NCBI RefSeq assembly: GCF_002009425.1
Contig: NZ_CP019936.1
Location: forward strand, 1,163,001-1,227,000
DNA length: 64,000 bases
Source: Thiosocius teredinicola
GTDB lineage: Bacteria > Pseudomonadota > Gammaproteobacteria > Chromatiales > Chromatiaceae
Direction of reading: 5' to 3'
In this document: piece after piece, positions 17,888 through 25,391 of the stretch
Position numbering within the stretch: position 1 is the stretch's first letter
Layout: each line of letters opens with the position of its first letter
Notes under the pieces: model-generated
Seen by the model: the letters and a program-made list of their open reading frames with translations, nothing else
Told to the model about the DNA's origin: nothing
Databases searched by the model: none
Program-made: the position numbers and the translations under genes

Positions 17888-17916
17888 TTGACGCCATTGT
17901 GGGCCGCCCGTATCAT
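17888..17916 (+). promoter_or_regulatory. Promoter of tRNA-Pro
   Basis: TTGACG (17888-17893), 17 bases, then TATCAT (17911-17916), followed by a GC-rich discriminator. It lies 32 bases before tRNA-Pro, as expected for a stable RNA promoter. Confidence 0.7.
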
Positions 17917-17948
17917 ATGGCGCCTTCGCAAATTGGCGAAGACCTATT

Positions 17949-18025
17949 CGGGGTATAGCGCAGTCTGGTAGCGCGCCTGCTTTGGGAGCAGGATGTCGGG
18001 AGTTCGAATCTCTCTACCCCGACCA
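17949..18025 (+). tRNA. tRNA-Pro (anticodon TGG)
   Basis: A 77-nt cloverleaf. Acceptor CGGGGTA pairs with TACCCCG, anticodon arm CCTGC-TTTGGGA-GCAGG gives TGG, T-loop TTCGAAT, and CCA is encoded. The last 19 bases are copied again 253 bases downstream. Confidence 0.97.
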
Positions 18026-18075
18026 GATTTGAGTGTTGCTGGCGGGCCATGTGCAATGCCCGGCTGGCAGCACGG
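18007..18075 (+). repeat. Direct repeat copy 1, spanning the tRNA-Pro 3' end
   Basis: 69 bases starting AATCTCTCTACCCCGACCA, that is the T-arm and acceptor 3' half of tRNA-Pro plus 50 bases of downstream spacer. It recurs at 18260-18328 with about five mismatches, all in the spacer part. Confidence 0.9.
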
Positions 18076-18092
18076 TAGGGCGAGAGAGATGA

Positions 18093-18259
18093 GAACTCCC
18101 GAAGGGAGTTTGATAAAAAACGACAGGACGTCGTTTTTAACGGCCGCAGGCCGGCCCATAGGGCGAAATGCAGGAAGTATTTCGTAGAAAAAACGACAGG
18201 ACGTCGTTTTTGACGGCCGCAGGCCGGCCCGCAGGGCAAAATGCAGGACAGCATTTTGC
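18093..18259 (+). ncRNA. Candidate structured RNA: tandem hairpin array with AGGA loops
   Basis: Two tandem 73-base units (18115-18187 and 18188-18260) preceded by a hairpin AACTCCC-GAA-GGGAGTT. Each unit folds into AAAAACGAC-AGGAC-GTCGTTTTT, CGGCC-GCA-GGCCG, and a third stem: CGAAATGC-AGGAA-GTATTTCG in unit 1, GCAAAATGC-AGGACA-GCATTTTGC in unit 2. Four of the loops read CAGGA(C/A), matching the CAGGA(U/A/C)G loop repeats of CsrB-type sponges of CsrA/RsmA. The third stem keeps pairing although its sequence changes between units, which supports an RNA fold. Alternatives are REP-like palindromes or a terminator array. Transcription from the tRNA-Pro promoter is inferred. Confidence 0.45.
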
Positions 18260-18260
18260 A
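18115..18260 (+). repeat. Two tandem 73-base repeat units
   Basis: Unit 1 18115-18187 and unit 2 18188-18260 share AAAAAACGACAGGACGTCG and the following GC-rich block almost exactly, then diverge in the last third, where compensating changes preserve a hairpin. Confidence 0.85.
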
Positions 18261-18328
18261 ATCTCTCTACCCCGACCAGATTTAAGTGGTGCCAGCGGGC
18301 CATGTGCAATGCCCGGCTGACAGCACGG
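18260..18328 (+). repeat. Direct repeat copy 2 of the tRNA-Pro 3' end and spacer
   Basis: Repeats 18007-18075 with about 93% identity and the same length. The tRNA part (AATCTCTCTACCCCGACCA) is identical. A G-to-A change in this copy creates CTGACA at 18317-18322, which could serve as a -35 for tRNA-Arg together with TACATT at 18342-18347 (19-base spacing). Confidence 0.9.
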
Positions 18329-18357
18329 ACCAATTTTCGGGTACATTCCTGAATACG

Positions 18358-18434
<77 letters not shown>

Positions 18435-18511
18435 TTCATCCCGCGGGGTGATCGCAAAAACAGGCTGAACGGGCCTGGTTCGATGCACGCATCGAGCAAA
18501 ACCGGTTCAAT

Positions 18512-18588
18512 GGTGGGCGTAGCTCAGTTGGTAGAGCCCTGGTTTGTGGCACCAGTGGTCGTGGGTTCGAGCCCCATCGTCCACCCCA
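18512..18588 (+). tRNA. tRNA-His (anticodon GTG)
   Basis: Cloverleaf with the extra 5' G (18512) opposite C73, acceptor GTGGGCG paired with CGTCCAC, anticodon arm CTGGT-TTGTGGC-ACCAG giving GTG, T-loop TTCGAGC, and CCA encoded. The -1 G is diagnostic of tRNA-His. Confidence 0.97.
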
Positions 18589-18602: not shown

Positions 18603-18630
18603 AGCGGCGGCCGTCAGGCGCCGCTTTTTT
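18603..18630 (+). terminator. Terminator of the tRNA cluster
   Basis: AGCGGCG, loop, CGCCGCT followed by a T6 run, 15 bases after tRNA-His. Confidence 0.8.
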
Positions 18631-24275: not shown

Positions 24276-25391
24276 ATGGCTCTGAATACTACTGAAGAAA
24301 TCATCGAAGACATGCGCCAGGGCCGCATGGTCATCATCATGGATGATGAGAACCGCGAAAACGAGGGCGATCTGATCCTCGCGTCGGAAAAGACCACGCC
24401 CGAAGCGATCAATTTCATGGCCAAGTACGGCCGCGGCCTGATCTGCATGACGCTGACCAAGGAGCGCTGCCGCCAACTGCGTCTGCCGCTGATGGTCAAC
24501 AGCGACGATCAGCTCGCATCGACCAACTTCACCGTGTCGATCGAGGCCGCCGAGGGCGTGACCACCGGCATCTCGGCCGCCGACCGCGCCACCACGGTGC
24601 TCGCCGCGGTCAAGGCCGATGCCCAACCGCAGGACCTGGTCCAGCCGGGCCACATCTTTCCGCTGATGGCCCAGCCCGGCGGGGTGCTGGTGCGTGCCGG
24701 CCATACTGAGGCGGGCTGCGATCTGGCGCGCCTTGCGGGGCTTTCGCCGAGCTCGGTGATCGTCGAGATCCTCAACGAAGACGGCAGCATGGCGCGCCGT
24801 CCCGACCTGGAGAAGTTCGCCGCCGAGCACGATCTTAAGATCGGCACCATCGCCGACCTGATCCAGTACCGGATCAAGAACGAGAAGACCGTCGAGCGGG
24901 TGACCTCGTGCAATCTGCCGACCAAGCGTGGCGATTTCCAGTTGCTGGCCTACCAGGACGTGATCGGCAACGACATCCACCTGGCCCTGGTCAAAGGCGA
25001 GATCAGCCCGGACCGACCGACGCTGGTGCGCGTGCACGTGCAGAACAGCCTGTGCGATCTGTTCGAGAGCACCCGCGACTGCGGCTGGCCGCTGCGCCGG
25101 GTCATGGACCAGGTGTCGGAAGAGGGCGAAGGCGTTATCGTGGTGCTGCGCAATTACGATACGGCGCGCGATATCGTGCATCGTATCCAGGATTACAAAT
25201 GGCACGGTGTGGACGATCAGATCCCTGATCGCAGAAAAGGCGACGACGATGATCTGCGTACCATCGGCGTCGGCGCACAGATCCTGGTCGATCTGGGGGT
25301 GCGCAAGATGCGCGTGATGAGCGCGCCCAAACACCTGCATGCCTTGGCCGGCTTCGAGTTGGAAGTGGTCGAGTTTGTTAGTACCGAGTAG
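24276..25391 (+). CDS. ribBA: 3,4-dihydroxy-2-butanone-4-phosphate synthase with inactive GTP cyclohydrolase II-like domain
   Basis: 371 residues. The N-terminal RibB half is intact: [31 protein letters not shown] and [20 protein letters not shown]. The C-terminal RibA-like half keeps the fold ([20 protein letters not shown]) but where active enzymes have the C-x11-C-x-C zinc site it reads [20 protein letters not shown], so the metal site is lost. This is a known state of many gammaproteobacterial RibBA proteins. ATG 24276 is chosen; an upstream extension is not homologous. Confidence 0.93.

Follow-up and report, generated by a model that had tools for sequence, protein, structure and literature searches.

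Introduction

Stable-RNA operons of E. coli carry tRNA-linked repeats (TLRs), which were first described in 1978 and whose function is not known according to the available text of PMC8144298, the source of the E. coli background in this paragraph. There are 22 TLRs at ten loci, and the last 18-19 bp of the repeat are identical to the end of the tRNA or rRNA that precedes it. In rRNA operons lie RrA, RrB and RrF, three members of the group for which an interaction with CsrA has been reported. Gel shifts were made with RrB: a short form binds CsrA with a KD that is to a first approximation 100 nM (section 24), and a mutant in which three GGAs, including both loop GGAs, are changed to UUU gives no shift in the tested range. 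CsrB is a far better competitor than RrB, and CsrA phenotypes are modestly altered when rrA, rrB and rrF are deleted or overexpressed. The rrB repeat is present in at least 31 species of Enterobacteriales, its region is enclosed by both rrnB terminators, a pair in wide use on plasmids, and RNase E recognition has been proposed for its repeated end (Discussion of that paper). The 19 TLRs of E. coli tRNA operons score below 0.01 as CsrA binders, and binding is not predicted for them. Among the open-licence papers listed by our searches, the term "tRNA-linked repeats" appears only in PMC8144298 and in the editorial PMC9245011.

Here we analyse an array of GGA hairpins between the genes for tRNA-Pro and tRNA-Arg in a 64,000-nucleotide stretch of the Thiosocius teredinicola genome, which we call the window. 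An earlier note, made from the letters of the window, had read the array as a CsrB-like sponge for CsrA encoded in a tRNA transcript. The part of this claim that places CsrA-type GGA hairpins in a tRNA operon holds, and the assignment to a CsrB-like family gives way to a different one: the array is almost certainly a GGA-type TLR. It sits behind tRNA-Pro with two cores of the RrA/RrB/RrF type, and we argue that it is probably freed as a small RNA that would titrate CsrA. As far as our searches of papers show, neither a pair of CsrA-type cores in the TLR of a tRNA operon nor so wide a distribution of these cores has been described before.

Two other systems come close in one respect each. The 3'ETS-leuZ sponge of E. 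coli is also a regulatory RNA cut from a tRNA transcript, but it pairs with the sRNAs RyhB and RybB rather than binding CsrA as proposed for the array (PMC8144298, available text). CsrR1 and CsrR2 of Alcanivorax (PMC9788540) were considered and, going by the text available, are not the same thing as the array.

Results

Layout of the tRNA-Pro/tRNA-Arg spacer

The features of the locus are collected in Table 1. The spacer is 332 nt long and is made up of a trailer, an inverted copy of part of tRNA-Pro, the H0 hairpin, two cores, and a second tRNA end with its own trailer. As in TLRs, in which the final 18-19 bp repeat the end of the stable RNA just upstream, the element closes with an exact copy of the tRNA-Pro end (19 nt here), and it lies 3' of that tRNA with tRNA-Arg and tRNA-His following on the same strand. 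Co-transcription is predicted: a promoter-like site from a sigma-70-like scan and a terminator-like site, both consensus matches, enclose tRNA-Pro, the array, tRNA-Arg and tRNA-His. Together the tRNA-Pro end and trailer form a direct repeat of 69 nt whose copies are 93% identical; because these flanks are part of the element, we widen its span to about 18007-18328. The direct repeats suggested a classical integrase origin, which we rejected, since the 184-nt insert is too small for an integrase gene. An exact search with the 19-nt pattern in a collection of species genomes returned one match, in Treponema, which we take as chance. Elsewhere in the window, at 24373-24476 on the minus strand, the Rfam family V_AS9 (Vibrio antisense RNA) matches with 54.9 bits against a cut-off of 50.

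Table 1. Features of the predicted tRNA operon that holds the array (positions within the window).
Feature	Position	Strand	Remark
Promoter-like site TTGACG-17-TATCAT, 5' of tRNA-Pro	17888..17916	+	consensus match only, 10/12
tRNA-Pro (TGG), tRNA 5' of the repeat	17949..18025	+	
Last 19 nt of tRNA-Pro, exact copy at 18260-18278	18007..18025	+	identical run of 24 nt
Trailer copy 1, repeated at 18279-18328	18026..18075	+	part of the 69-nt direct repeat
Inverted copy of the tRNA-Pro 3' half (29 nt, against 17996-18024)	18074..18102	+	83% identity
H0 hairpin AACTCCC-GAA-GGGAGTT, ahead of the insertion point	18093..18111	+	
Core unit 1	18115..18184	+	R1 76.6 bits
Hairpins of unit 1	H1 18116-18138, H2 18141-18153, H3 18154-18164, H4 18165-18183	+	
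Loop GGAs of unit 1	18126 and 18173	+	
Core unit 2	18188..18258	+	R1 81.1 bits
Hairpins of unit 2	H1 18189-18211, H4 18236-18259	+	
Loop GGAs of unit 2	18199 and 18246	+	
tRNA-Pro 3' end, copy 2 (TLR hallmark)	18260..18278	+	exact, 19 nt
Trailer copy 2	18279..18328	+	
tRNA-Arg (TCT), next gene in the predicted operon	18358..18434	+	
tRNA-His (GTG)	18513..18588	+	
Terminator-like hairpin (18606-18625) and T-run, 3' of tRNA-His	18606..18630	+	consensus match only

Hairpins of the array

The earlier note had described tandem 73-base units of three hairpins each. We find the same tandem spacing of 73 nt, with four hairpins (H1 to H4) in place of three, and the two units share 61 nt at 93% identity. 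AGGA is found in four hairpin loops as had been claimed, with CAGGACG in H1 of both units and CAGGAAG and CAGGACA in H4; the presence of several GGA motifs in hairpin loops is a trait of CsrB/RsmZ RNAs, and the array has four. The computed probability that the GGA is unpaired is 0.96-1.00 at all four loops, both in the spacer alone and in the tRNA precursor. In the predicted fold of 18060-18290, H2 and H3 of unit 1 form some of their pairs with unit 2 and the four GGA hairpins are unaltered, and in the minimum-energy fold the first part of the inverted copy pairs with the second tRNA-Pro end, closing the array.

Two comparisons rule out hairpins that arose by chance. The fold of 18060-18290 has a z-score of -8.1, and none of 200 shuffled sequences is equally stable. 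Counting strict GGA hairpins, defined by GGA in the loop and a stem of 7 bp or more that includes no more than one G-T pair, we find 3 in the 168-nt array (H4 of unit 1 fell short), against a mean of 0.005 and a maximum of 1 in 1000 shuffles. The whole window has 9 strict hairpins on the plus strand and 8 on the minus strand. The four loops of the array do not count as four independent events, because the units are tandem copies.

The cores match RrB of E. coli

We built two covariance models, R1 from 18 units and R2, a model of the core, from 63 matches (52 distinct) with no E. coli rows among them. In a stretch of 901 bases R2 picks out rrB of E. coli (72.4 bits, E 6.5e-17) with no non-standard pair marked, and the match places an RrB-type core between the two rrnB terminators. 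The training row closest to the rrB core is 76% identical to it. The window units score 73.3 and 69.8 bits under the same model, with the difference that their rows are in the training set and rrB is not. Because R2, which matches the window units, also finds rrB without having been given E. coli rows, we read the array as a TLR with two four-hairpin cores of the RrB type.

Like the array, RrA, RrB and RrF (in rrnA, rrnB and rrnD) have a core of four hairpins in which the loops of H1 and H4 carry GGA (rrB was the one tested), a copy of the 3' end of the stable RNA before them, a place in a stable-RNA operon and a CsrA motif. They lie 3' of 5S rRNA between two terminators (PMC8144298, available text), whereas the array lies 3' of tRNA-Pro, and rrB has one core where the array has two in tandem, together with a tRNA end copied in inverted orientation. 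For RrB, CsrA binding was measured (same source); for the array it is what we infer.

Stems covary while the GGA loops are mostly kept

In an alignment of 52 distinct units fitted to the structure, two-sided changes occur at 19 of the 24 base pairs; the covariation score of 0.466 compares with 0.141 for shuffled alignments, is reached by 0 of 500 of them, and drops to at most 0.081 when the structure is slid along the alignment. An unfitted MAFFT alignment of 18 units gives the same picture, with two-sided changes at 14 of 24 pairs and a score of 0.387 against 0.147 when shuffled. The covariation that the earlier note saw between the two units in the third stem is thus supported across genera by these multi-unit alignments. 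In a full-length alignment of the tRNA-lodged elements (A4), the left arm aligned poorly.

The loops behave differently from the stems. GGA is kept in both H1 and H4 in 48 of 52 distinct units at the family level and in 34 of 42 at the class level, in a census that is biased toward GGA, as most of the units behind R1 and R2 carry GGA. Eight class-level units lack one or both GGAs; five of these score below 46 bits and three above 75 bits (L133, the second unit of L139, and L146). H1 loops are mainly of the form C-N-GGA and H4 loops mainly A(N)GGA(N) with a C-G closing pair, so written out as C-A(N)GGA(N)-G, a pattern that 40 of 52 family-level and 35 of 42 class-level H4 loops fit. C-A(N)GGA(N)-G is the CsrA/RsmE consensus. 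Because of the homology to RrB and of stem covariation around mostly kept GGA loops, CsrA binding is likely, and we expect that the array RNA would very probably bind CsrA in vitro.

Distribution and genomic setting of the cores

A DNA search of 210 family genomes finds related units in other genera, and the covariance-model search of relatives that had been proposed reaches well beyond the genus. R1 matches 84 of 204 family genomes (32 of 61 genera), R2 matches 159 of 369 class genomes (122 of 272 genera), and at a stricter cut-off R2 matches 83 of 398 phylum genomes, the own class among them. Family genomes hold up to at least 24 copies, and all copy counts are lower bounds from the best 12-24 candidates scored per genome. 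The T. teredinicola genome is different: the R2 search finds the two window units, one further clear unit and one weak one (E 0.003), rather than many copies, and the three clear units lie at two tRNA loci, all 3' of tRNAs. The alternative of a dispersed REP-type repeat is therefore excluded by copy number in the own genome, and it describes the relatives, where the units are multicopy and mobile.

None of the eight other genomes of the genus has a full-length match to the array. The gap between tRNA-Pro and tRNA-Arg is 15-90 nt in seven of these eight (G006 left out) against 332 nt here, and across 29 tRNA-Pro loci of relatives tRNA-Arg comes next at 26, with a gap of 9-90 nt; two of the remaining loci (L009 and L018) have no called tRNA-Arg and the third (L027) ends. 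Judged from these loci, the insertion at tRNA-Pro appears to be recent in this genome. At L009 and L018, the tRNA 3' of tRNA-Pro begins like tRNA-Arg and then runs into a long insert, with no ARAGORN call; the insert looks like a group I intron, and no Rfam intron family matches at cut-off at these two loci. The tRNA after tRNA-Pro has a similar start in L050 and L061.

Many units are flanked by GGTTCG on one side and AATCC on the other, or nearly so, which places them in the T-loop of an incomplete copy of a tRNA end. In one genus the units interrupt the T-loop of a tRNA-Pro copy that lies 5' of an intact one; tRNA-Pro copies broken in this way stand at L047, L049, L050 and L051, and L142 shows the same arrangement with a broken and an intact tRNA-Arg; in another genus two units lie 3' of tRNA-Tyr in both genomes drawn. 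A tRNA is called at 10 of 30 class-level unit loci. Other units are found inside reading frames or other dispersed repeats, and near-identical copies of about 75 nt occur at unrelated sites (100% identical in L106). At L105 (1624-1695 and 3898-3969) the unit lies within a frame that resembles an IS66 transposase by eye, in two near-identical neighbouring stretches. The units of L101, L102 and L125 lie within other palindromic sequence (CGTCATTGCGAG..., CCGTCATTCCGGCGAAAGCCGG...), which we take to be dispersed repeats.

We recounted orientation for 98 units at 74 loci with our own gene calls, excluding the window and dropping 8 duplicate placements. The neighbour counts leave aside units inside genes, and several units share one locus. 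At tRNAs there is an orientation bias: the unit has the same orientation as an upstream tRNA in 16 of 18 cases and as a downstream tRNA in 20 of 25. There is no clear bias elsewhere, with 30 same and 24 opposite for upstream coding neighbours, 22 and 26 for downstream ones, and 10 sense and 7 antisense for units inside genes. A directional target sequence could also produce the bias seen at tRNAs.

CsrA in genomes with units

In the own genome a single CsrA is matched; the protein has 60 aa and is unremarkable in length and sequence. Across 369 class genomes, 145 have both CsrA and units, 14 units only, 167 CsrA only and 43 neither; the odds ratio of 2.7 (p 0.002) ignores phylogeny, genome size and completeness, and we give it little weight. 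CsrA is undetected at E 1e-5 in those 14 of the 159 unit-bearing genomes, four of which (G042, G302, G332 and G550) carry at least 10-12 units. Some of the 14 are incomplete or have CsrA in another genome of the same genus, and others are at least 95% complete; in two of the latter (G499 and G332) the best unit read has GGA in both loops (L130 and L153). The unit family seems to spread as a repeat regardless of CsrA, and perhaps only some loci make use of CsrA binding. Among the matches listed, units or RF00391 repeats also occur about 0.3-1.4 kb 3' of csrA and share its contig and strand (G331, G341, G342, G349, G244, G045, G435, G458, G508, G520 and G535), perhaps through linkage of csrA to tRNA-Ser.

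RtT repeats and other TLRs of the same genome

The array does not belong to the RtT family (RF00391, gathering score 45), which gives no match in 17900-18520 at E up to 10. RtT and tyrT-tyrV TLRs resemble it in having an inverted tRNA end with GATGAGAA or similar, GGTTCG, a core with H2 and a CCCGAAGGG H3, and an AATCC tRNA end. The difference lies in the GGA: the rtT cores read have none and the core of the tyrT-tyrV spacer has one outside the H4 loop, whereas the array has GGA in loops. R2 matches weakly (9.1-15.1 bits) the same four repeats that RF00391 matches in E. coli tyrT-tyrV, and a repeat from another genome (L100) scores 53.3 bits with RF00391, above the cut-off of 45, and 65.7 bits with R1. 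RF00391 matches 57 of 312 class genomes, 20 above the cut-off. At 30 RF00391 loci a tRNA is called in 26, and an R2 match (E up to 0.01) is present in 22, not always at the RF00391 match itself.

The own genome has such repeats at two further loci. Two TLRs lie 3' of tRNA-Ser(TGA) (L157, C1 about 2,161,500-2,162,000, minus strand), where the 19-nt tRNA end occurs three times at 168/169-nt spacing with a hairpin after each. The first has a GGA core (R2 54.1 bits, RF00391 23.5 bits) and the second, with 45.8 bits for RF00391, has a core without GGA. An RF00391 repeat of 48.9 bits lies 3' of tRNA-Gln(TTG) (L182, C1:4366347-4366477, minus strand), and its core is also without GGA. Since these last two TLRs have no GGA in the core, GGA is not needed for a TLR.

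Discussion

How else could the array be read? A gene for a true sRNA of the CsrB/RsmZ family, as the earlier note suggested, would account for the repeated CAGGA loops in a genome with CsrA, and CsrB/CsrC and RsmX/Y/Z do carry several GGA hairpin loops on one RNA. Their architecture is different, the array offers only four sites, and no Csr/Rsm family of Rfam matches the window at gathering (the best weak match is RsmY with 11.3 bits, E 3.2, cut-off 57), which rules out membership on Rfam. Genes of that family have a GacA/UvrY-dependent promoter of their own, whereas the promoter scan at the array covered sigma-70-like sites. Genome-wide we searched with RF00166 only; it gave no match in nine genomes of the genus, a weak test in that the model scores below its cut-off in 2 of 14 control genomes. 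Together with the position between tRNA genes and the lack of the array at the relatives' loci read, this makes a CsrB/RsmZ gene a most improbable reading. The bidirectional terminator or attenuator array raised in the same note is scarcely better placed: the A5/T5 arms beside the H1 stems speak for it, but a scan finds no terminator in 18093-18260 on either strand, the T-run belongs to the H1 stem, and termination there would remove tRNA-Arg and tRNA-His from the transcript, so that we consider it very unlikely. We also think it unlikely, although less so, that the hairpins serve as a processing or antitermination spacer that separates tRNA-Pro from tRNA-Arg and guides cleavage by RNase E or RNase III, with the 19-nt copy as a recognition copy for RNase E. 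The array does lie within the predicted operon, and such recognition has been proposed for the repeated end of RrB (PMC8144298, available text); against it, 26 of 29 relatives' loci manage with a gap too short for such an array, and GGA loops kept through stem covariation are left unexplained.

The rival that weighs most, with in our judgement a little less than an even chance, is a selfish mobile hairpin DNA whose core is directed at G^AA sites, the tRNA T-loop among them, whose GGA loops are kept for a mobilising enzyme and for which CsrA binding is incidental. Multicopy units in 84 of 204 family genomes, with at least 24 copies at the upper end, favour it, as do the near-identical copies of about 75 nt at unrelated sites, the copies inside reading frames and other repeats, the lack of a clear orientation bias at coding neighbours or inside genes, and GGA units in genomes without detected CsrA. 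What speaks against it is that sense orientation prevails at tRNAs (16 to 2 upstream and 20 to 5 downstream), which a directional target could explain, that the three clear units of the own genome all lie 3' of tRNAs, that the H4 loop keeps A--GGA while the intervening letters vary, and that RrB binds CsrA (PMC8144298, available text). A mobile origin and CsrA binding are compatible and can both hold. Rickettsia palindromic elements are likewise short structured repeats inserted in coding and RNA genes. By description, their host lineage and structure differ from those of the array.

Returning to the TLR with two RrA/RrB/RrF-type cores, we picture its action as follows. The array would be transcribed within the Pro-Arg-His precursor, and tRNA processing would free the spacer, with RNase E cutting behind the CCA ends and RNase P before tRNA-Arg. 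The freed RNA, with its four GGA loops, could accommodate two CsrA dimers; it would titrate CsrA, and its amount would track stable-RNA transcription. That this amounts to measurable titration in vivo is a more doubtful proposition than binding itself, and we hold it only tentatively.

The array is a TLR of a tRNA operon and has two copies of the core of the CsrA-binding RrB; the TLRs of E. coli tRNA operons are not predicted CsrA binders (PMC8144298, available text). Our search places such cores in 159 of 369 class genomes, compared with the minimum of 31 Enterobacteriales species given for rrB in that paper. As a speculative extension, the core may be a mobile CsrA-binding module that moves from genome to genome and lodges at G^AA of tRNA T-loops and 5S ends and would turn stable-RNA operons into growth-rate-coupled titrators of CsrA, so that many bacteria of the class might have lineage-specific, tRNA-encoded sponges that replace CsrB/RsmZ or act beside them. 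If this is true, CsrA activity would be tied to tRNA transcription in many bacteria through a spreading RNA module.
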